A stretch of 64,000 nucleotides of DNA from Methylocaldum szegediense. GTDB lineage: Bacteria; Pseudomonadota; Gammaproteobacteria; Methylococcales; Methylococcaceae. The position numbers and the translations under genes are program-made. Of the stretch, positions 24,234 to 42,624 are shown one piece after another. Location: positions 1,116,001 to 1,180,000 of the forward strand of contig NZ_OX458333.1 in NCBI RefSeq assembly GCF_949769195.1, written 5' to 3'. Position 1 is the stretch's first letter. The number at the start of each line of letters is the position of its first letter. The notes beneath the pieces were generated by a model. It ran no database searches, was not told the origin of the DNA, and saw nothing but the letters and a program-made list of their open reading frames with translations.

Positions 24234-25199
24234 CTAATTGTTATGTCCCGAATGATTGTAAACCTTCTTGTGAAAAAGATGAGGATGGGACAGTTGCCAG
24301 TTTTTGAGAGCCTGGATCGGGGTGAGATGGCCTAAGGCCTTTTGGGGAATGTGATGATTGTACAGCTCGACATAGCGGTGCAGGGTGGTGTCCAGATCGG
24401 CGGTTGAATCGAAGTGATGGGTTTGCAACACCTCCTCGATGCGGCCATTGAAGCGTTCCACCAGGCCATTCGTTTGGGGCCGGCCCGGCGGAATCAGGCG
24501 ATGTTCGATGCCTTGTTCAGTACAGAGGCGGTCAAACTCATGCGTCCCCGAGGGCTGCCGAGTTCGGGTCAGGAAACGGTCGGTAAACTCCGAGCCGTTG
24601 TCGGTCAGGCATTTCTGGATGCGGAAAGGCGCGGCCTGAATCACCGCTTTGAGGAAGTCCTTTGCGCTTAAGGCGGTGCGGTTGGGCTTGAGGGCGACAT
24701 AGACCCAGCGGGTGGCGCGGTCGATGGCGACGAACAGGTATCGGCGGGGTTCGCCGTCGATGGCGGGCAAGTACTTAACATCCAGGTGAAGGAAGCCGGG
24801 CTCATAGGCCTTGAAGGGTTTGACCTTCGCCTTCTCTGTAGGCGGAAGCAGGGTCTTGAGGGACGCCACCCCGTGGCGGCGCAGGCAGCGGTCTAGCCCG
24901 GAACGGGACACGGCGGGATTGAGAAATTCCCGGGTCACGGCCAGGAGATCATCCAAGGGGAGGAGCAGAGCTTGGCGGAGGTAGACCACGATGGCTTCCT
25001 GGGCGGGCGTGAGCGTGGTTCTGAGGGTGTGGGGCCGGTGTGAGGCATCTTCGACCGAGGATCGGTGTTTCCACTTGCGGACGGTCGTTCGGCTAATGCC
25101 ATGCTTTTGGGCCAAGGCGCGCTCGCTCAACGTGGACGCTTGAATGGCCTGCCGAACGGCCGGGGTGGTACGGGCGTTCTTATGAAGACGAATCTGCAT
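24234..25199 (-). CDS. IS481-family transposase, copy 1
   Basis: A 321-residue DDE transposase from the ATG at 25199 (MQIRLHKNARTTP), which follows GTGAGG at 9-nt spacing; an in-frame GTG lies five codons earlier. An N-terminal helix-turn-helix (ALAQKHGISRTTVRKWKHR) is followed by the rve integrase core with Asp140 (LHLDVKYLP), Asp200 (LTDNGSEF) and Glu248 (NGLVERFNGRIEE). The frame has no stop inside the element. It runs through the left end and stops in the host target duplication, giving a C-terminus of GHNN. Confidence 0.95.
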   Translation of the reverse strand: MQIRLHKNARTTPAVRQAIQASTLSERALAQKHGISRTTVRKWKHRSSVEDASHRPHTLRTTLTPAQEAIVVYLRQALLLPLDDLLAVTREFLNPAVSRSGLDRCLRRHGVASLKTLLPPTEKAKVKPFKAYEPGFLHLDVKYLPAIDGEPRRYLFVAIDRATRWVYVALKPNRTALSAKDFLKAVIQAAPFRIQKCLTDNGSEFTDRFLTRTRQPSGTHEFDRLCTEQGIEHRLIPPGRPQTNGLVERFNGRIEEVLQTHHFDSTADLDTTLHRYVELYNHHIPQKALGHLTPIQALKNWQLSHPHLFHKKVYNHSGHNN

Positions 25200-25303
25200 G
25201 GAGAGAAACCTCACTTGGACGAACCGAATATCTCCTGGAGAAGGCTCCGGGCTTCGAACAGAGCATAACTCCTTCTGGGTAAATAATCATACGGGACGTG
25301 ACA
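24239..25303 (-). mobile_element. IS481-family insertion sequence, copy 1 (1,065 bp)
   Basis: The terminal inverted repeats TGTTATGTCCCGAATGATTG (left) and the complement of CATACGGGACGTGACA (right) bound the element. GCTAAT occurs directly outside both ends (24233-24238 and 25304-25309), a 6-bp target duplication. Copies 2 (41560-42624) and 3 (58078-59142) have the same length and nearly the same sequence. This copy has the most changed left end (TGTTATG against TGTCATG). Confidence 0.95.
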
Positions 25304-27818: not shown

Positions 27819-28435
27819 CATCCAATCTCTTCGGCTGGAGCGACGCCGTCTGGGGCGTCATCGACCAGGTCAGCATACTCTTTGGGATAGCTACGGGGGT
27901 GACCTGGTTCATCGGGCTTGTGTTGGCGTTTATCAAGCGGGATGTCCTGAAACGGTGGCTTTTTCGCAATCATTTCCCTCATGTCGGCGACAGTCTGACG
28001 ACCGACGATCACTGGGACGGGCTGATTTTCACTGTCAGCAAAGCCGAACTGCCGATAATCGTGCTGCAGCGGTTGAGACCTAGCCACATAGGCCTCATCG
28101 CCTCCGAGCAGTCGCGAAGCCAGGCCGAAATCATCCGCCAAAAGGCCGAAACCATGGGCATTCAATGCCACGGCATCGAATGCGTGAACAATCCCGACGA
28201 TCCGGCTGAAACTCGCGAGCGCACCCATGCGCTGATCAACTGCATGCGGACATCCGGCGCCACTCGCTGCGCTGTCGATGTCACCGGTGGCAAGACACCC
28301 ATGAGCCTTGGCGCGTTCATGGCCGCCGAAGAAACAGGCTCCAGCACGCTTTATCTAGCATCCCGTTACGACGACGAACTGAAACGCCCCGACCCTCTCA
28401 GCTCCCGCATCCACTGCATCTCCAGACCGGAATAG
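27815..28435 (+). CDS. Cam1-like membrane CARF protein
   Basis: A 206-residue protein. One strong membrane segment lies at about 16-40 (IDQVSILFGIATGVTWFIGLVLAFI), with a basic stretch after it. A CARF domain follows (about 65-205), with IFTVSKAELPIIVLQRL as first strand and the ligand-loop signature VDVTGGKTPMSLGAFMAA at 154-171. Size and order match Cam1, a type III ancillary protein that binds cyclic tetra-adenylate and opens a membrane pore to depolarise infected cells. Its start overlaps the csx16 stop by 4 bp. A Csx6/Csm6-type RNase is excluded because no HEPN motif (R-x4-6-H) and no second domain are present. Confidence 0.8.
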   Translation: MTSNLFGWSDAVWGVIDQVSILFGIATGVTWFIGLVLAFIKRDVLKRWLFRNHFPHVGDSLTTDDHWDGLIFTVSKAELPIIVLQRLRPSHIGLIASEQSRSQAEIIRQKAETMGIQCHGIECVNNPDDPAETRERTHALINCMRTSGATRCAVDVTGGKTPMSLGAFMAAEETGSSTLYLASRYDDELKRPDPLSSRIHCISRPE

Positions 28436-28627
28436 CCATGTCGAGCATTGCTTTGATCATTGTGGACCATCCCCCAACGGCTCCAAACACCGAGCGAGCA
28501 ACCGGAAACTTCGTGCCGGCAAACCGGTTGAATCGACCACGCTTGAATGCTAACTTTTCGGCGCTTCAATTTTTCTGCAACCCCCTTTCTAACTCATTGA
28601 ATATGGAGGCATTTTAGACGCGAGCCG
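28436..28627 (+). promoter_or_regulatory. Probable CRISPR leader, with a 59-codon open frame
   Basis: These 192 bp lie between the Cam1-like gene and the first repeat. The 3' part is AT-richer than its surroundings. The perfect repeats lie at this end and the mutated ones at the far end (37414, 37675), so I infer that this is the leader side. An open frame from the ATG at 28438 to the TAG at 28615 (MSSIALIIVDHPP at its start) begins 2 bp after the preceding stop. It may be the start of a lost gene or chance. Confidence 0.55.
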
Positions 28628-31335
28628 GTTTGAAACGAGACCTGATTAAGAAGGGATTAAGACCCAGGTCGACGGCCAGAATTAATTCGCCAGAAATGTT
28701 TGAAACGAGACCTGATTAAGAAGGGATTAAGACCTTCAGGCAGTGACAAGGTGAACTGTCCGCGTTGGTTTGAAACGAGACCTGATTAAGAAGGGATTAA
28801 GACCTTCGATCAATTCCGCGATTTCTTCCCATCTGTTCGTTTGAAACGAGACCTGATTAAGAAGGGATTAAGACTTGTGGCGTTTGAGAAAGCCGTTAAA
28901 ACTCTTTCCGTTTGAAACGAGACCTGATTAAGAAGGGATTAAGACTTCTTTCCTGATACCATCTAAGACGGATTTAAACGTTTGAAACGAGACCTGATTA
29001 AGAAGGGATTAAGACCCATAGAGCCTGCGAGCACTATACAGGTCATCCCGTTTGAAACGAGACCTGATTAAGAAGGGATTAAGACGGTATCCGCTATGGT
29101 GAGTACTACTAGGTCTTCTGTTTGAAACGAGACCTGATTAAGAAGGGATTAAGACTTACGTGTTTAATTTTCATTTTGTATTGCTCCCTGTTTGAAACGA
29201 GACCTGATTAAGAAGGGATTAAGACCGTCCTTGGCGCGGATTGTAATGGAGTGAGGGGTGTTTGAAACGAGACCTGATTAAGAAGGGATTAAGACAACCA
29301 ACAGTTACCCAATTTGTAAAGTTGATCGGGTTTGAAACGAGACCTGATTAAGAAGGGATTAAGACCAGGCATTCTCAGCCTGTTTAGGGTCCTTGGTAAG
29401 TTTGAAACGAGACCTGATTAAGAAGGGATTAAGACTGCGAGTGATTCGGTAATTGCCAGCGCCAAAAGCGTTTGAAACGAGACCTGATTAAGAAGGGATT
29501 AAGACACATTCGGCATCTTCCGGTCCTCAGGTTGGTAGTATGTTTGAAACGAGACCTGATTAAGAAGGGATTAAGACAGTCAATAACGGCGAACCGTTGA
29601 AACCTAACCTCGTTTGAAACGAGACCTGATTAAGAAGGGATTAAGACTTGTCGTTCCAATTGGGCATCTTTCCGGTACGAGTTTGAAACGAGACCTGATT
29701 AAGAAGGGATTAAGACGAAGGGATTAAGACCGGTTTTCATGGTTTCACCTCGGTTTGAAACGAGACCTGATTAAGAAGGGATTAAGACCACATTCGTCAA
29801 CCCTCTTAAAAGTCACTAACGGGTTTGAAACGAGACCTGATTAAGAAGGGATTAAGACGCTTTCTCCGGGCAATTCCCACTCATCTGTTATGTTTGAAAC
29901 GAGACCTGATTAAGAAGGGATTAAGACGCGCAGGACGTTGATAATGTCCTCGCGACTATTGAGGTTTGAAACGAGACCTGATTAAGAAGGGATTAAGACA
30001 CCCCAGCCCCGCGTGGCTTAGACCGCCTCTTGAGGTTTGAAACGAGACCTGATTAAGAAGGGATTAAGACACGCACCAATCCGCACAGTCGCGACCTCCT
30101 TTGCGTTTGAAACGAGACCTGATTAAGAAGGGATTAAGACTTCGGACGAAGTCCCCTTCTACCCAATACCCCTTCGGTTTGAAACGAGACCTGATTAAGA
30201 AGGGATTAAGACGGCCAGGTCCAGCGTATTGGTCCCTTCCTTCGGTTTGAAACGAGACCTGATTAAGAAGGGATTAAGACCGCTCCCGGATGTACTCAGT
30301 TCGGACGAGGGGTTCGGTTTGAAACGAGACCTGATTAAGAAGGGATTAAGACGGGTCGTCCCAGCGGCGGCCCTCGTTTTCCGGCAGTTTGAAACGAGAC
30401 CTGATTAAGAAGGGATTAAGACTATAAGCTAAGAACACCTTTTTAATTGCCATTGTGTTTGAAACGAGACCTGATTAAGAAGGGATTAAGACCGGCTGGA
30501 ACCCCGGCGAACGGGCCTTCGCCCTGAGGTTTGAAACGAGACCTGATTAAGAAGGGATTAAGACTCGGTCGATTGACCACACCAGCGGTGGGCCTCGGTT
30601 TGAAACGAGACCTGATTAAGAAGGGATTAAGACGCCCCGGTGATTGGGCACGTGCCGACCACCTCATGTTTGAAACGAGACCTGATTAAGAAGGGATTAA
30701 GACTTAAGAATTTCTTGTTTTTTAGCCATTTTTTTCAGTTTGAAACGAGACCTGATTAAGAAGGGATTAAGACGCATTGACCCAGATACATTTCCACCTC
30801 ATCCAGCGTTTGAAACGAGACCTGATTAAGAAGGGATTAAGACCGATCCTCCCATTGAAGAGGATGCACCCAAAGTGAGTTTGAAACGAGACCTGATTAA
30901 GAAGGGATTAAGACTCCGCCTGCCTTCCTAGATCCTCGATGTGCGCTATGTTTGAAACGAGACCTGATTAAGAAGGGATTAAGACGCCCCGGTGATTGGG
31001 CACGTGCCGACCACCTCATGTTTGAAACGAGACCTGATTAAGAAGGGATTAAGACAAGGCGTCCCGGTCACCGATACGGACCAATTCGGTTTGAAACGAG
31101 ACCTGATTAAGAAGGGATTAAGACTTATTCTTGAGCCCATACCCACACCGGACGATATGTTTGAAACGAGACCTGATTAAGAAGGGATTAAGACTTGGAC
31201 ACCCGGTTCGAACCGCCGTTGCTGCGGGCGTTTGAAACGAGACCTGATTAAGAAGGGATTAAGACGGAATGGGCACGTCCTTGTGCCAAGTGGCGTCATG
31301 TTTGAAACGAGACCTGATTAAGAAGGGATTAAGAC
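28628..31335 (+). CRISPR. CRISPR array, 39 identical 36-nt repeats, 38 spacers
   Basis: The repeat starts GTTTGAAACGAGACC and ends AGAAGGGATTAAGAC. I located 39 copies from 28628 to 31300, all identical by eye, with spacers of about 32-36 nt. If transcribed on the plus strand the 8-nt crRNA handle would be AUUAAGAC, close to known type III handles. Spacers 29 and 34 (30634-30667 and 30986-31019) are identical. Spacer 16 (29717-29752) begins with a copy of the last 14 nt of the repeat. The array continues after a 6-kb interruption with two diverged repeats. Adjacent genes are type III ancillary genes; no cas1/cas2, cas6 or cas10 is near. Confidence 0.98.
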
Positions 31336-31725
31336 GCCTTTGCGGTCCTGTATTTGAAAGCCAGTTCGCTGAAAAACACGGAAAATATCGATGCCAAAGC
31401 CGTGATCGCGGCTTGGGATCTGTTTCACGAGCGCTATCCGCACGCGCTCAGGTTCCGTCGCCCGTTCACGAAGATTAGGCCCGCCAATATCACGGAGGCT
31501 TGGGTACTCGCGCAAGCCTTGCGTTGTGGCATGGCTGAACTTCGGCATTGTTCGGATTGCCACGGTGAGTATCTGGTGATAGAGGACTGCAAGATCCCTC
31601 CGGTATGCCAATACTGCGCCTTAGGATTTTCAAGGAGGCGAGGCGAGAGTGCTCCGGCTGGTGAGGATGTGATGGACCTGTTGACACTCGATCGAGAACA
31701 CCAACCTGAAGAGATCGCAGCTTAA
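31336..31725 (+). pseudogene. FlhC/AcaC-like transcriptional activator, 5'-truncated
   Basis: The frame enters directly from the CRISPR repeat and reads AFAVLYLKASSLKNTENIDA, then AVIAAWDLFHERYPHALRF, ITEAWVLAQALRCGMAELRHC and a zinc site CSDC...CQYC. This corresponds to the second half of FlhC, including the four-Cys zinc motif; the N-terminal half is missing. FlhC-type proteins act with an FlhD-type partner. Versions on SXT and IncC elements (SetC/AcaC) activate transfer genes. Given traG in the same segment, the mobile-element type is more likely than a flagellar regulator. A TTG at 31354 could start translation, but the product would lack the DNA-contact half. Confidence 0.75.
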
Positions 31726-31760
31726 CACTACGCATTCCCCAGCTTTGCGCACGTAGCTTT

Positions 31761-31787
31761 GCCATCCAAGCAGCTTGCTTGGATGGC
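31761..31787 (+). terminator. Perfect hairpin between the flhC-like and cold-shock genes
   Basis: GCCATCCAAGCA / TGCTTGGATGGC with a 3-nt loop gives a 12-bp stem 36 bp after the flhC-like stop. AGGAAAAGTTTTA follows, so the T-run is displaced. It could be a terminator or part of the 5' region of the next gene. Confidence 0.5.
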
Positions 31788-31832
31788 AGGAAAAGTTTTA
31801 CGCTGATAAAAGCAAAGTTGGAGAATACGTAA

Positions 31833-32501
31833 ATGGATAGCTCTGACCATTGTTCGTTAACCCCCATTCCAAGCAAGGGGGTTATTAAACATCTATCCAA
31901 GAAAGGCTACGGATTTATCACCGGCGAAGACGGTGTGGATCGATTTTTCCACATCGTCGACGCCGCGGCCGACTTCACGCCGAAAACCGGCGCTTTCGTT
32001 CTGTTCGATCCACAGGATCACCAGAAAGGGCCGCGTGCGGTCAACGTCAGACTGGATCCGGCGTCCTTGGTTGAAGTCGACCGGACGAACGGGAAGATTT
32101 CAGCACTGCAATCGCCGCAGCTAAAAAAGAAGGAAGAAGGGGCTATCAGTTCGGCTTTTTGGCGGGTGGTTCTGTGCTCGGTGGTATTGGCCTGGATGGT
32201 ATACAAACACGATACAGGTAAAGGGATTGTCGTGGGCATCGTCGTCCTGCTCTGGCTCGCCTTCGTCGCTGACCTCCTATTCAAAATCCTCCGCGCTGTG
32301 TGCCAGGCAGTCATCAACCGTGTATGTCGATTGCTGGGTATCGAAAGAAAAGCGAAACCTGCCAAACCTACGGTTGCATGGGAAAAACCGGAACCTCGAA
32401 AACACTGGAGCATCAAAGGTCCCGAAGCACCAATTGAGATTGACGACACCACCACAGACCCGTGGTACTACCTTTATCCCGGGAACATTTACCACGACTA
32501 G
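31833..32501 (+). CDS. Cold-shock-domain membrane protein
   Basis: A 222-residue protein. The N-terminal cold-shock domain (about 14-75) reads SKGVIKHLSKKGYGFITGEDGVDRFFHIVDA, with the aromatic RNA-binding motifs KGYGFI and RFFH. Two membrane helices follow (about 107-122 FWRVVLCSVVLAWMVY and 130-155 GIVVGIVVLLWLAFVADLLFKIL), then a basic, proline-rich tail. CSD-plus-membrane proteins (often CSD-DUF1294) occur on plasmids and ICEs, but the tail here does not clearly match DUF1294. The stop TAG is formed across the TA duplicated by the IS630 insertion; the uninterrupted sequence would also read TAG, so the protein end is native. Confidence 0.7.
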   Translation: MDSSDHCSLTPIPSKGVIKHLSKKGYGFITGEDGVDRFFHIVDAAADFTPKTGAFVLFDPQDHQKGPRAVNVRLDPASLVEVDRTNGKISALQSPQLKKKEEGAISSAFWRVVLCSVVLAWMVYKHDTGKGIVVGIVVLLWLAFVADLLFKILRAVCQAVINRVCRLLGIERKAKPAKPTVAWEKPEPRKHWSIKGPEAPIEIDDTTTDPWYYLYPGNIYHD

Positions 32502-33745
32502 TGGAGTGTTCGCGAAGTAATTCAACCTAGTCAATGCCCCTGACTATTGACCCAATCCCGCATTTTGCGGCGTGTCCAGGACCAGTGAAACGGATGGGCG
32601 AGCAACTCGTTGTATTCGCGCCAGGCCGCCTGCAGGTGGTCGGTCAAGTCGGCTCGGCTGGTCCAGTCGCCCCGCTTCAGATAGCGCTCGGAGAACGCCC
32701 TGAGCAGCAACTCGGCTTGGTTGAGCCAGGAGGCGTGCGCCGGCGTCAGCAGCACGCGTACCTTCTGGCGATGCCGGCGCAGGCACTGCGCGGTCAGCCC
32801 GCTGGTATGACTCGGCCCGCCGTCCCAGATCAGGTGAATGCGCTGCATTTCCCGCAGATCCTCGAACAGTTCGTCGAGGGTGGGGATCAGGTGAGCGCTG
32901 TCGTTGCGCTCCAGACACCAGCCTCGCATCGTCCCGTCGTGCACGAACAGCGCCCCGAGGAAGTTCACCGTCCCGTGCCGGATATACTCGAACTCCTGCC
33001 GCTCGATCCGCCCGGCGCGCATTGCCACCGTAGGCCGGCGGCGCTCCAGGGCCTGCAGCTGTGGCTTCTCGTCCAGGCAGACGACCACCTCGTCGGACTC
33101 GCGCAACCGATCGACCCGTTCATAGCACCACAGGATTTTCCGCGCCCGCTCGACGAAGTCCCCGTCCAAACACGGCGTCTTCCAGTAGCGCGAGCGGTGC
33201 GGCTGCAGGTCAGCGGCGCGCAGGATGAGCGCGACCGTCGAGTGCGCGATCCGAGGAACAAGGCCCTGGCGTACCGCGGCCTGGGCCAGGGTCCGGGTCG
33301 ACCAGTGGGTCATTTGCAAGCCAATCCCGCTCGGTTCACAGCAGGCCAGTTGCTCGATGCGTACGCGGACCAAGGGGGGAAAGGCGACGCGGGCGGCCTG
33401 AACGGGGAGCGTCATCGAGGGCCGCCAGGCCGCGCTGCTCAAAGCGCCGACACAGGTGCCAGATACTGGAACGGTCCATTTCCACGTGGGCGGCTAACGT
33501 CTCGACGACCGTGCCCGCCTCTGCCATGGCGAGCGAGACACGGGCGCGCCGGGCACGGCGTTGCTCCACCCGATCGTCTCTCACGATGGCTCGCAGGGCT
33601 TGGCGATCGGCTTCGGACAAGTGAACGCCACGGGGCTGACGGCGCCTCATCGCTCTCACCTCACGTTTCGAACTGCCGTGAGAGCGAGTGTAGAAGGCAC
33701 AGTCCAGCACTGCGACTATGTTGAATTACTTATCAAACAGTCCAC
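32501..33745 (-). mobile_element. IS630-family insertion sequence (1,245 bp)
   Basis: Imperfect inverted repeats bound the element: GTGGAGTGTTCGCGAAGTAA at the left and, read on the other strand, GTGGACTGTTTGATAAGTAA at the right, each followed by TTCAAC-TAGTC. TA stands at both ends (32499-32500 and 33746-33747), as expected for IS630/Tc1-mariner target duplication. It is inserted between the cold-shock gene and the traG-like gene. Confidence 0.9.
32531..33650 (-). CDS. IS630-family transposase in two overlapping frames
   Basis: The first frame (33650 to 33336, MRRRQPRGVHLSEADRQAL) carries the helix-turn-helix region (VETLAAHVEMDRSSIWHLCRRFEQRGL). The second (ending at 32531) carries the DDE domain with VVVCLDEKPQLQALE, IHLIWDGGPSHTS and LLTPAHASWLNQAELLLRAFSERYL. 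They overlap at a run of six C after TTT near 33371-33379, where a shift links RPRRL to AFPPLVRVRIEQLAC. IS630 elements often use programmed frameshifting at such runs, so the gene may be functional. Alternatively it could be a frameshift mutation. Confidence 0.85.
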
Positions 33746-33755
33746 TAGTGCGGTA

Positions 33756-36700
33756 TTAACTGCGTTTTGACGCCAATTGATCCCCCAACACCCGCCGCAC
33801 GTAGTCCTGTGTTTCCGGGAACGGGGGGATGCCGTTGTATTGCTCGACAGCGCCTTCGCCCGCATTGTACGCAGCAACGGTTCGCACAAGGTCGCCCTGG
33901 AAATGATCCAACAGCCACCGAACGTACTTGGCGCCACCCTCGATGGATTGGCGCGGATCGGTCCGATCGGTCACGCCGAAGCGTTCGGCGGTGGCGGGCA
34001 TCAGCTGCATTACACCGACTGCGCCCTTCGGAGACGTGGCGAGCGGGTTGAAGGACGATTCCACGCTCGCCATCCGTTCCAGCAATCCGGACGGCAAACG
34101 GTACCGGCTTTCCATTTCCTGAAAGATCGGTATCAAATCGGCCGGTGTCGGCTTCGTTTTCGTGAACACGGGATAACTGTCGCCGGTCAGGGGGTTGTCT
34201 GTGGCGCCCTGTGCGGGTTCGTTGGCGCGATTGTAGTTGCCGATCAGATCGATGAGGTCGGGGCGATATTGCGTGGCGGTCTGCCGCAAGAGTTTTGCGA
34301 TATTCGGCCCCATGTCGCCTGACTCCTCTAGGAGTTGCTGTTCCGCCTCGCTTAGCGTCGGGTGACCGGTATCAGTACCAAGAGAGAGTAGTTGACTGAT
34401 CTGGTTTGCCATCCAACCAGGACCGCTGAGTTCCGACCATGGAAGACCGGCGAACGTTTCGTATAACGAGGCCCGATAATAATCCTGTTGAGCGGGTGTC
34501 AACCGATCCGCAACCTCCGCGACTCGTTCGTCAACCCATCGGTCGATACCGGCCTTGAATCGATCTGCCGAGATTTCGGGTAAATTTTCCAGTGCTTCGA
34601 TACCAGCTTCCGCTGGATTCTTACCATCCCGCAATGCACGTTCATACGTTTCTTTGAAGTCATTTCTGACACCTTCGAGATTTGTTACGCCGGTACTAAC
34701 TGCCGAGAGACTCTGGCCGATGCTGTACAAGGCGCCGCCGACATAATCGTAGGCGAACTCCGCCGGCGAGGAATCGTTGGCCGAGCGGGTGATCTGCTCC
34801 CTGAAATGATCAGCTCTTTTACTACGAATGTCGCGGCGAGCTTGATCGGACTCGTGGCGCAACGTGGTCTGGCTGTCGTGGTATGCGCTATTGACCGACG
34901 CCTCGCCGCTTGCGACTCTTCCGTGTTCCTGACGGATTCGGCTTAGAACACGATCCTCTATGCCGGCCGTATCGCCGCGGGGATCGTAAAGATTCACTTG
35001 CTCGACCTGGCTTTGAACCTCGCCGAAGGCAGGCGCGGCCTCGCGGATGTGCGTGTTACGGCTGTAGTTCAGATCGTTGCCAGGTGCAAGTGTTTGCCAG
35101 GTGTCACCTAGCAATTGATAACCGGCAATCTTTGCTTTGCTGGCTTCTTCGGCATCGAGCGACCGATAGTGCGTCGGCGAAAATCCGGTCAGCAACGACA
35201 CGCCAGCGGCAGCGTAGGCCTGATCGCGATCGGAGATCAGACCGATCGCGCGCCATTCGGCTGCCAGGCGCTGAGTATCCCCAATCAGGCCATAACGGTC
35301 GAGCGTCTGGGTGAGCCGTTCGAACAGACCCGGGTCGCTGGCGATTCGAAGCCCGGTTTCCGCCGCGCCGAATGTCGCCTGTGCGCCGAATCGTTGCTGC
35401 ATAGCCACCGTCTCGTTGTAGGTTTCCGAGGCCGACAGCGCGTCGGTCGCGCTGCGCTGAAGCGTCGAAAGTTCCTGGCTTTGCAGACCGAAAGCCGCGA
35501 CGTCGCGCGTGCTCTGCTGCGCGTCGGTGACCAGGCTGCGCTCGAGGCCAGTTTGAAAACTATTGTCTTCTCCCCACTTAGAGAGTATGTCGGCAGCAAG
35601 TTCATTTGCGGTTTGGTCACCAACCTTGAATTGGTTTTGAATTTGGCCGGAAAGACTGGCTAGCCGAATATTGCCTCCGATTGAGGCCGACAGAGCCGCG
35701 GCGAACTGGTCGCCGGAAATGCCGGAATGACTGTAACGCTGCGCGAAGTCCTCGCCGACCGACCGCAGGAATTTGTCGGTGTAGCTCGTGCTGTTCGCAA
35801 TTTTGGTCACCAGCGAATTCAGATCCGAACCCTCTGTGCTGAGGCTGTGGCTTCTGGACGCTGCCGCCTGGAGATTGCTCATGAAATTGGAGGTTGCCTG
35901 TTCCATTGCTCCGTAGGCCGAGGATACCGAGGCGCTTAGGTCGGTCCCAGCATTGAAAGTGGGCAGCACGCGTTCCGCGCCATGCAGCGTGACGCCGGAG
36001 AGCGGCGCGTGTTGATGCATCGGTTGAAGGTTCAACACCGGCGCGGGGCCGATCACGTCCGGCGTTGTAATTCGCTCGTTCACGTGGTCACCGCTGTCCA
36101 TCCGGCTCAGGAAATGGGTCGCCGTGACGGCGCCACGATAAATCAGCATTAGGGTGATCGCCGGCGTCGAGGCTGCGAGCATGCCGCCGATGGCAATCCA
36201 GTTCTGAAGCTCCTGGTCCAATTTATAAATGCCGTATATCGAGGGCAGATTGAACGTCGCGCCGGTCAGAGCGGCCATCTTCGCCGAGGCGGCCATCTGT
36301 ATGAAGAGGTTGACCACGGCCAGAATCGGCATCCACAGCTGGATCCAGAGCAACATGGAGAAGTAGGCGATATTCATGCGGATGCCCAGGGCGCCCAGCA
36401 TGATCACGAAGGCCATCATAGGCGCGAGAGCGTAACTGAGCCCTTCGATGAACGCCATCATCGGCCGAACGATGCGGTTGAACAGCGTTTCCTCGGCAGC
36501 CCATTGGGTGTTCCGTTGCTGGATCGCCTGTTCGACCATAGCGGCCTTGTTCCAGTGCATGGCATCCTCGTGACGGCCGACAATACCTTTCTCGAACATC
36601 GGCAGGATCGCGGCCATCTTCATGTAGTGAAGTGCGTCGACCGCACCGGAACCGGCGAGCGCGTCGAAGGCATCCTGAACCTTCGGCAGGACCTCAGCGG

Positions 36701-37413
36701 GAGACGATACGCCGACAGCGTCGGCAAGTAGCTCTTCGAGCCGCGGGACGAACCGGTCGTCGATGTAGGCCGCCAATTGAGCCCAGGCGTCGGTGCACGT
36801 CAGGATACGCGCCCCCCCGCCGATATAGATCTCCGTGGTGTAAATCGCCGTGTCGAACCGGATAGCGTTCAGGGGATCGGGGTCGCGCAGGATCTCGTCA
36901 ATGGATTTCCGGTTCAGATCCACGCCGGTGAGCGTGCACTCCTTGACATAGTTGATCACGCTGTTTTCGACGTCAGCCCCGGCGGTAGGCGCGTTGGCTC
37001 CGCCAAGCTGCGTGCGGGAAAGGAGGTTTTTCCGAATGGCGGTGATCGTGGTCAGAGTGTCCGCGAACCCGCGTTCGGTCATCGTCGGCAGTGAGAAAGC
37101 CTGCTCGAATAGGCGAGTCGTGCGGTATCCCATGTTCGACAAAAGGCTGCCGACCGCGGCCGGACCGAGCGGTACGTTATCCACCACCCGGACATCGCCA
37201 GTATAGGCATCCTCTATGGAGACCCGAACCCCTGGGCTGTACAGGATCATCCACAGTACCACGGCCATGAACATATCCTGGTAGCGGATGCCACGACCGT
37301 CCCAATTCACCAGGGACCGGATCATGACCAGAATCACGCCCACGACAGCGCCGACGGAGGCGGCCGTCCGGTAATCGCCGGTCTGGGCGAGCATGGCAAC
37401 CGCATTCAGTACC
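33756..37413 (-). pseudogene. traG: TraG-like conjugation protein fused to a lytic transglycosylase, start removed
   Basis: The first in-frame ATG is at 37394 (1,212 residues), but homology-like sequence (VLNAVAM) continues upstream into the CRISPR repeat. About 15-20 N-terminal residues and the native start are therefore lost. Membrane helices lie at about 15-30, 45-55 and 310-430 (SYALAPMMAFVIMLGALGIRM and MLLWIQLWMPILAVVNLFIQM). A long Ser/Gln-rich helical middle follows (460-1050). A C-terminal SLT domain (about 1085-1200) shows GLLERMASVESSFNPLATSP with the catalytic Glu, GVMQLMPATA and VAAYNAGEGAV. TraG-type proteins stabilise mating pairs; the SLT domain would open peptidoglycan. Translation from 37394 could still give a nearly complete protein. 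Confidence 0.8.
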
Positions 37414-37449
37414 GTTTGAAACGAGACCTGGTTAAGAAGGGATTAAGAC
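37414..37449 (+). CRISPR. Displaced CRISPR repeat (1 mismatch)
   Basis: A 36-nt repeat identical to those of the main array except GGTTAAG for GATTAAG in the middle. It abuts the truncated traG-like gene on its left. On its right a 32- to 35-nt spacer (from 37450) precedes the MITE-like insert. Confidence 0.95.
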
Positions 37450-37481
37450 ACTATCTTGGTCACGTAGCGCGGCAGGGACGA

Positions 37482-37674
37482 TTAGAGCGTTTTCATTTTG
37501 TTTATACAGTAGATCTACGTTGCGGAAATCATTTAGCTGTAGTGGAAGTAGGGTGTGGTGAGCGAAGCGAACCGCACCGCACCGTTCGCGGATGGCTTCC
37601 AGTATGGAGTCCAGTTAGTCCTGCCTGACTTCCATTCCCCTCGGTTGCCTTTCAATGAAGATGAAAACGCTTTA
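37482..37674. repeat. MITE-like element inside a CRISPR spacer
   Basis: AGAGCGTTTTCAT (37484-37496) and ATGAAAACGCTTT (37661-37673) form near-perfect terminal inverted repeats of a roughly 190-bp element without a gene. TTA stands at both edges, a possible target duplication. The interior holds the common GTGAGCGAAGCGAACCGC palindrome. Removing it leaves a spacer of normal size, about 32-35 nt. Confidence 0.7.
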
Positions 37675-37710
37675 GTTTGAAACGAGACCTGATTAAGAAG
37701 GGGTTAAAAC
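37675..37710 (+). CRISPR. Terminal degenerate CRISPR repeat
   Basis: It differs from the consensus at two places near its 3' end (GGGGTTAAAAC for GGGATTAAGAC). A mutated last repeat is typical of the leader-distal end, which supports transcription from the 28.6-kb side. Confidence 0.92.
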
Positions 37711-41524: not shown

Positions 41525-42520
41525 CTACGCGTCCAGGATACTGAAAGACGGCCGATAGGTGTCATGTCCCGCATGATTGTAAACCTTCTTGCGAAAGAGA
41601 TGCGGGTGGGACAGTTGCCAGTTTTTGAGAGCCTGGATCGGGGTGAGATGGCCTAAGGCCTTTTGGGGAATGTGATGATTGTACAGCTCGACATAGCGGT
41701 GCAGGGTGGTGTCCAGATCGGCGGTTGAATCGAAGTGATGGGTTTGCAACACCTCCTCGATGCGGCCATTGAAGCGTTCCACCAGGCCATTCGTTTGGGG
41801 CCGGCCCGGCGGAATCAGGCGATGTTCGATGCCTTGTTCAGTACAGAGGCGGTCAAACTCATGCGTCCCCGAGGGCTGCCGAGTTCGGGTCAGGAAACGG
41901 TCGGTAAACTCCGAGCCGTTGTCGGTCAGGCATTTCTGGATGCGGAAAGGCGCGGCCTGAATCACCGCTTTGAGGAAGTCCTTTGCGCTTAAGGCGGTGC
42001 GGTTGGGCTTGAGGGCGACATAGACCCAGCGGGTGGCGCGGTCGATGGCGACGAACAGGTATCGGCGGGGTTCGCCGTCGATGGCGGGCAAGTACTTAAC
42101 ATCCAGGTGAAGGAAGCCGGGCTCATAGGCCTTGAAGGGTTTGACCTTCGCCTTCTCTGTAGGCGGAAGCAGGGTCTTGAGGGACGCCACCCCGTGGCGG
42201 CGCAGGCAGCGGTCTAGCCCGGAACGGGACACGGCGGGATTGAGAAATTCCCGGGTCACGGCCAGGAGATCATCCAAGGGGAGGAGCAGAGCTTGGCGGA
42301 GGTAGACCACGATGGCTTCCTGGGCGGGCGTGAGCGTGGTTCTGAGGGTGTGGGGCCGGTGTGAGGCATCTTCGACCGAGGATCGGTGTTTCCACTTGCG
42401 GACGGTCGTTCGGCTAATGCCATGCTTTTGGGCCAAGGCGCGCTCGCTCAACGTGGACGCTTGAATGGCCTGCCGAACGGCCGGGGTGGTACGGGCGTTC
42501 TTATGAAGACGAATCTGCAT
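41525..42520 (-). CDS. IS481-family transposase, copy 2
   Basis: 331 residues from the ATG at 42520. The DDE residues and helix-turn-helix are as in copy 1 (Asp140, Asp200, Glu248). The reading frame passes out of the left IS end and adds a host-encoded tail (YRPSFSILDA) before stopping at 41525. The intact frame, intact ends and perfect target duplication suggest an active or recently active element. Confidence 0.95.
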   Translation of the reverse strand: MQIRLHKNARTTPAVRQAIQASTLSERALAQKHGISRTTVRKWKHRSSVEDASHRPHTLRTTLTPAQEAIVVYLRQALLLPLDDLLAVTREFLNPAVSRSGLDRCLRRHGVASLKTLLPPTEKAKVKPFKAYEPGFLHLDVKYLPAIDGEPRRYLFVAIDRATRWVYVALKPNRTALSAKDFLKAVIQAAPFRIQKCLTDNGSEFTDRFLTRTRQPSGTHEFDRLCTEQGIEHRLIPPGRPQTNGLVERFNGRIEEVLQTHHFDSTADLDTTLHRYVELYNHHIPQKALGHLTPIQALKNWQLSHPHLFRKKVYNHAGHDTYRPSFSILDA

Positions 42521-42624
42521 GGAGAGAAACCTCACTTGGACGAACCGAATATCTCCTGGAGAAGGCTCCGGGCTTCGAACAGAGCATAACTCCTTCTGGG
42601 TAAATAATCATACGGGACGTGACA
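41560..42624 (-). mobile_element. IS481-family insertion sequence, copy 2 (1,065 bp)
   Basis: The ends TGTCATGTCCCGCATGATTG and CATACGGGACGTGACA bound the element. The 6-bp target duplication GATAGG stands at 41554-41559 and 42625-42630, so this copy transposed here as a unit. The internal sequence is almost the same as copies 1 and 3; the main differences are near the left end (GCGAAAGAGATGCGGGTGGG). Confidence 0.96.

Follow-up and report, generated by a model that had tools for sequence, protein, structure and literature searches.

We analysed a 64,000-nucleotide stretch of the Methylocaldum szegediense chromosome (the window; C1:1116001–1180000), in which an array of clustered regularly interspaced short palindromic repeats (CRISPR) is interrupted by a segment that, judged from its genes, is a fragment of an SXT/R391-like conjugative element. 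The 4.9-Mb genome is assembled in two contigs (C1, 4.87 Mb; C2, 25.7 kb), with completeness 100 and contamination 0.2. The array comprises 41 copies of the 36-nt repeat GTTTGAAACGAGACCTGATTAAGAAGGGATTAAGAC, 39 of which are perfect. Repeats 1–39, all perfect, occupy positions 28628–31335 of the forward strand together with 38 ordinary spacers; repeat 39 ends at 31335, repeat 40 (37414–37449, forward strand, one mismatch) starts at 37414, and the 6,078 bp between them (31336–37413) are repeat-free, non-array DNA, a giant 'spacer' that appears to be a colinear piece of the element. Intact repeats of a single array border this foreign DNA to its left and right; it leaves no recognisable spacer remnant and is single-copy in the genome, as determined by a search covering both contigs. 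The initial annotation of the window had placed the segment exactly between two repeats of the same array, and this observation is confirmed in the assembly, with exact coordinates.

A conserved leader (28378–28627, forward strand) lies to the left of repeat 1. In a MAFFT alignment of 250-nt upstream stretches, the leader is common to all five arrays compared, and blocks within its last ~90 bases are conserved across the four others. With the leader at the left, the segment sits at the old, trailer end of the array; 38 ordinary spacers precede it towards the leader, and one interrupted interval follows it. That interval (37450–37674, 225 bp, forward strand) begins like a spacer and continues with a small element, probably a miniature inverted-repeat transposable element, whose ends GCGTTTTCAT and ATGAAAACGC are inverted and around which our script resolved no clean target duplication. 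The array closes with repeat 41 (37675–37710, forward strand), a degenerate terminal repeat with two mismatches.

The segment opens with an flhC-like (setC-like) gene (31336–31725, forward strand) that lacks its 5′ part, roughly 70–80 codons, and whose frame is open from the repeat boundary. The profile matches of this gene, covering positions 85–159 of 170 in NCBIfam FlhC and 86–161 of 173 in Pfam FlhC, are both below the curated cut-offs. It is followed by a cold-shock-domain gene (31833–32501, forward strand; Pfam CSD), by an IS630-family insertion sequence (IS) at 32500–33749, with approximate ends TAGTGGA...TCCACTA, transposase in two overlapping frames and no second copy in the genome, and by traG (33756–37413, reverse strand). 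The traG gene lacks its first ~15–16 codons, and its remaining 1,218 codons are stop-free and encode a TraG_N domain (Pfam, 20–460 of 462) and an SLT domain.

Passages in PMC4542580 describe SetCD and AcaCD as FlhCD-like activators whose genes lie near the TraG gene in SXT/R391 elements and IncA/C plasmids, and state that SetC and AcaC are poorly detected by the Pfam FlhC model. The segment has the same neighbourhood, with a traG that encodes a TraG_N domain and a nearby FlhC-like activator gene (the latter by its sub-cut-off match), but here it is found in only about 4.8 kb of element DNA, ~1,250 bp of the 6,078 bp between the edges being the IS630-family element. For comparison, we used 20 stretches from 17 genomes of relatives, picked from TraG matches, so that all carry TraG by choice. 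Among these 17 relatives, the FlhC-like gene is present in 12 and the cold-shock gene in five (tblastn, 42–59% in 5 of the 20 stretches), and four have all three genes in the order of the window, with the cold-shock gene between the flhC-like gene and traG. In these four, the points corresponding to the two edges are separated by 4.7 kb (L026), 5.0 kb (L033), 5.9 kb (L028 with L029) and 8.1 kb (L030). Because gene order and edge spacing are as in the relatives, the block seems to be a single contiguous stretch of the element.

The source of the fragment has no close match in the collections searched. Within the order, TraG is 54–60% identical to its best long matches and up to 69% identical over shorter N-terminal pieces, and the DNA of the segment is about 65–71% identical to that of the relatives in long matches. 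In plasmids, the best-ranked protein match has 47.1% identity, with 4 of 3,722 records covering at least 80% of the query (the protein matches include Methylomonas), and the best-ranked DNA match has 24% coverage at 67% (1,002 records); a peptide pattern detected no close source element in the genome_contigs or viral_contigs collections. No complete transfer set was found in the genome; apart from TraG, the transfer families searched were TraH, which gave no match, and the TraI_2 relaxases, whose sole match is a 57-codon relic with stops, 0.5 Mb away. This decayed relic (C1:1657444–1657705, L069) is 62–71% identical to a frame in two of the relatives' stretches (L027 and L029).

Comparison with the relatives bears out the proposal of the initial annotation that both outer genes are cut at the repeats. 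The FlhC-like reading frame begins AFAVLYLKASS at 31336, right after repeat 39, while the TraG frame begins VLNAVAMLAQTG at 37412, directly against repeat 40. All 17 TraG homologues have at least 17 open-frame residues past the edge of the window, with a likely start, such as MFEIFSVGDSAYLQA, at 15–16, and 11 of the 12 FlhC-like homologues have at least 76 residues past the edge, the twelfth (L026) having 32 before the fetched stretch ends. At the TraG edge, nucleotide identity falls from 21–29 of 36 positions inside to 9–14 of 36 outside (17 loci). At the FlhC-like edge, it is 7–19 of 36 inside and 4–11 of 36 outside (12 loci), and, since the inner DNA match is weak, truncation there rests mainly on the protein frame. 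An intact relative was detected with a 29-nt right-edge pattern (three mismatches), whose single match besides the window itself lies in a stop-free traG of genome G066 that runs past the edge. Specifically, the last 23 bases up to the edge agree at 21 positions, and the G066 gene then continues as traG where the window enters repeat 40. Both edges are thus located inside coding sequence of the element and are not its natural ends.

The three segment genes contain no stop in 4,716 bases. In a simulation script with 300 trials at each divergence, which considers substitutions only and assumes no selection, frames stay free of stops with a probability of 0.25 at a neutral divergence of 1% and of 0.05 at 2%, and the open frames suggest that the event is recent.

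Ordinary insertions into such arrays look different. In another array of this genome, an IS leaves a 1,084-bp gap with an 8-bp duplication, ATAAAATT, and both spacer halves, from which a 31-nt spacer is recovered; in an array of a congener, an IS leaves a 1,087-bp gap with an 8-bp duplication, AACATTTT, and again both halves, from which a 34-nt spacer is recovered. The segment retains neither spacer halves nor a target duplication, and insertion of an IS or transposon was rejected on that ground. Transposition of the natural element is ruled out by the location of both edges within genes, so the view of the initial annotation that simple insertion does not fit holds. Insertion of a circle at one spacer would leave ~34 nt shared by both edges, whereas the two edges are dissimilar (longest common run 6 nt), which counts against such an event. 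Recombination between repeats, or repeat units carried in by the element, is also unlikely, as the best matches to the repeat in the segment and the 20 relative stretches have 15–18 mismatches in 36 positions.

The window array belongs to a type III-associated system, as it shares its repeat and leader with other arrays of the genome, the chromosomal ones of which lie among type III effector genes. The repeat recurs in chromosomal runs at C1 952580–957673, 967488–970198, 971283–976724 and 987337–991932, between which are encoded Cmr2, Cmr3, Cmr4 and Cmr6 (type III-B), Csm1, Csm2, Csm3 and Csm6 (type III-A), and Cas6. Cas1 genes are present, one of which adjoins arrays at C1:947178–948029. Neighbours of the window array itself are a gene for a Card1-like nuclease and a CARF-like gene whose profile match stays under the curated cut-offs. 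In genome_contigs, from which the own genome may be left out, the repeat has no matches.

In our preferred interpretation, to which we give slightly better than an even chance, homologous recombination at two spacers matching flhC-like and traG replaced the units between them. The array would once have held a spacer A, matching the flhC-like gene, and a spacer B, matching the start of traG, both derived from one SXT/R391-like element. With the element in the cell, spacer A would recombine with protospacer A and spacer B with protospacer B, either in one double crossover or in two steps, in which a circular element would insert at A (pop-in) and recombination between B and protospacer B would then delete the bulk of the element (pop-out). 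The product would read repeat, A, element, B, repeat, with the DNA between the protospacers in place of the array units between A and B. From the junctions, former spacer A, the putative left homology arm, would occupy 31336–31369 (forward strand), sense to flhC-like, and former spacer B, the putative right arm, would occupy 37380–37413 (forward strand), antisense to the 5′ end of the traG mRNA. The exact repeat edges, the truncated outer genes, the gene order of the relatives and the single copy are observed; we infer the identity of the ~34 nt at each edge as former spacers and the order of the steps. As spacer B would have been cut from its 5′ repeat, the anatomy makes it likely that no normal CRISPR RNA would be produced from it. 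Two further likely consequences are the loss of the array units that had separated A from B and a trapped traG that has no start.

The double-crossover form of this model had already been put forward in the initial annotation, and while the model fits the anatomy best, the spacers that it expects at the edges were not found. That and the following points weigh against it. Own spacers were collected at up to nine mismatches per repeat (n = 305). When the edges were compared with these, the best identity was 55–57% and none exceeded chance; moreover, reversed controls fit the segment at least as well as any own spacer, and none of the 305 scored above the reversed control against the 20 relative stretches, where the best match of the control was the stronger one. 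The last of these tests is weak owing to the DNA identity of about 65–71% noted above. Searched as strings of 27–29 nt rather than the full 34, neither edge is found in the viral contigs (0 and 0); among 310 other genomes of this order, with up to three mismatches allowed, the left edge matches nothing, and the right edge matches only the intact traG of G066, not an array. Furthermore, spacer A would be sense to the flhC-like mRNA, an orientation that a type III guide does not use, and spacer-target recombination as described in passages of PMC8616872 and PMC10434264 concerns phages, not conjugative elements. Finally, the bases past the right edge in the intact relative, GCTTGTA, match the start of the repeat, GTTTGAA, at five of seven positions and could be used by microhomology joining.

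Most of the remaining probability is shared by capture by Cas1–Cas2, microhomology and misassembly. Cas1–Cas2 could have integrated a linear element fragment of at least 4.8 kb at the leader side as an oversized spacer, which 38 later acquisitions would have pushed trailer-ward; this route would need no pre-existing spacer to leave a full repeat at each edge, and Cas1 is encoded in the genome, including next to arrays. The prespacer, however, would be more than 100 times the normal length, 267 of the 268 spacers measured being 31–37 nt and one 45 nt (the other 37 were left out), and the 38 acquisitions would have to have occurred while traG, the cold-shock gene and the flhC-like gene gained no stop, an argument that is itself weak because spacer gain can be fast. 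We consider such a capture improbable, in line with the initial annotation, which had ranked it behind recombination between spacers and protospacers. Illegitimate recombination between array and element, ending at repeat boundaries by chance, appears a little less probable again. The microhomology past the right edge would serve it, but has no counterpart at the left edge, where only 4–11 of 36 outside positions are identical (12 loci), and with a 70-nt period two exact boundaries would arise by chance roughly once in 4,900 cases; microhomology would account for one edge only.

Junctions at repeats, which are classic misassembly points, are known here from the assembly alone, and element DNA could have been misjoined into the array. 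A chimera would need the rest of the element somewhere, yet the segment is found nowhere else in the two-contig assembly, which, in the transfer families searched, lacks a TraH match and has only the stop-containing TraI_2 relic for a relaxase, and which shows the completeness and contamination values given above, and we regard misassembly as distinctly unlikely. The least credible alternative, for which we see very little chance, is that the two degenerate right-hand repeats are a separate small array and the segment ordinary intergenic DNA between arrays. Congener G061 does have two such repeat runs 1,418 bp apart with, by eye, a transposase-like frame between them; but in the window the repeat at 37414 has no leader in front of it, the traG coding sequence runs directly into it, and a separate array gives no account of the flhC-like frame beginning exactly behind repeat 39.

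One of the 37 unique window spacers (one of them shortened) has a clear target gene in the 310 other genomes, in two of them, and the remaining window-spacer matches there have expect values (E) of 0.0015–0.05. The matching spacer, 31195–31229, is the second to the left of the segment, and it aligns with a gene, which we take to be an IscB-like HNH gene, at 34 of 35 and 33 of 35 positions in two relatives (antisense to the gene in the former) and weakly, at 28 of 35, in a third genome, so that the array part near the segment records foreign genes. Outside the window, the searches covered the 15 spacers of the plasmid and about 54 of the 247 unique ones elsewhere on the chromosome, and none of these has a protospacer at E ≤ 0.002 in the 310 genomes. 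As at most two candidates were scored per genome in the protospacer searches, targets may have been missed.

Prophages have reportedly integrated into CRISPR loci of Streptococcus pyogenes (Varble et al. 2021), as whole prophages. That case likewise places foreign DNA in a CRISPR locus, whereas the segment has no natural element ends and two outer genes that are cut. Kilobase inserts in CRISPR loci are also known from IS insertion, in passages of PMC10359306 into cas genes, and the two array insertions that we measured differ from the segment in their spacer halves and target duplications. Recombination between spacers and targets has been reported between phages and CRISPR loci (passages in PMC8616872 and PMC10434264, both citing Varble et al. 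2019) and a type III-A system of Staphylococcus aureus has been proposed to use the same route (a passage in PMC10434264). The proposed likeness lies in the spacer as a homology arm between array and invader; in the phage case, as far as those passages describe it, the CRISPR locus is transferred in phage particles, whereas here a conjugative fragment is kept in the array between two repeats, and the mechanism is read from a single fossil. None of the literature matches listed, compared by title or abstract opening and mostly from outside subscription journals, describes a conjugative-element fragment bounded by two repeats. Spacer-target recombination with phages is known already, and what is added here, on our best reading, is a conjugative element, a retained kilobase fragment and a type III-associated array.

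A broader proposal, which we put forward tentatively and hold to be somewhat short of an even chance, is that type III spacers can act as allelic-exchange arms. An element entering a cell whose array already holds spacers against it would recombine with two of these, remove the units in between, separate one spacer from its repeat and remain in part as a giant spacer. If this is true, recA-type recombination can strip arrays of memory and load them with kilobase cargo without Cas1–Cas2, and spacers serve both as immune memory and as targets for recombination. Matching DNA of its own could then allow an invader to erase part of the memory against itself, and conjugative elements that escape immunity in this way would leave giant spacers as a legible scar. 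This type of scar, foreign DNA cut at two repeats with genes truncated at both ends, is easily searched for in complete genomes, so its frequency and targets are measurable. The further suggestion of the initial annotation, that the array had turned from defence into a capture site, exceeds the evidence, because there is one event only, near the trailer end, and 38 ordinary spacers are still present on the leader side.

Several features of the system and its surroundings were noted in passing. At C2 9632–10719 (L012, L013), the plasmid-sized contig of 25.7 kb has a leader and 16 repeats of the chromosomal type, of which the last is degenerate. A gene for a Csm6-like CARF domain fused to an adenosine deaminase adjoins an array (L046 14153–16303; C1 949153–951303), and its product is probably a type III effector. 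An identical spacer occurs twice in the window, five units apart (30634–30667 and 30986–31019), and three further pairs and more occur in the chromosomal arrays. Across the arrays (window 28628–31335; C1 952580–991932; C2 9632–10719), the spacers show a strand bias that favours the antisense of translation starts. Specifically, CAT with an anti-Shine-Dalgarno string after it is found in 13 of 299 unique spacers and in 1 of 299 reverse complements under the strict definition (20 and 4 under the loose one), a bias to which the T-richness of the spacers (29.5% T, 21.0% A) may add. In congener G061, an array (L064 16394–18956) with an IS inside and no conjugative segment lies beside a CARF gene 70% identical to that of the window, and this array is probably orthologous to the window array. 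In the window, near-identical transposase genes on the same strand flank the array region at 24234–25214 (IS481 family) and 41525–42535.

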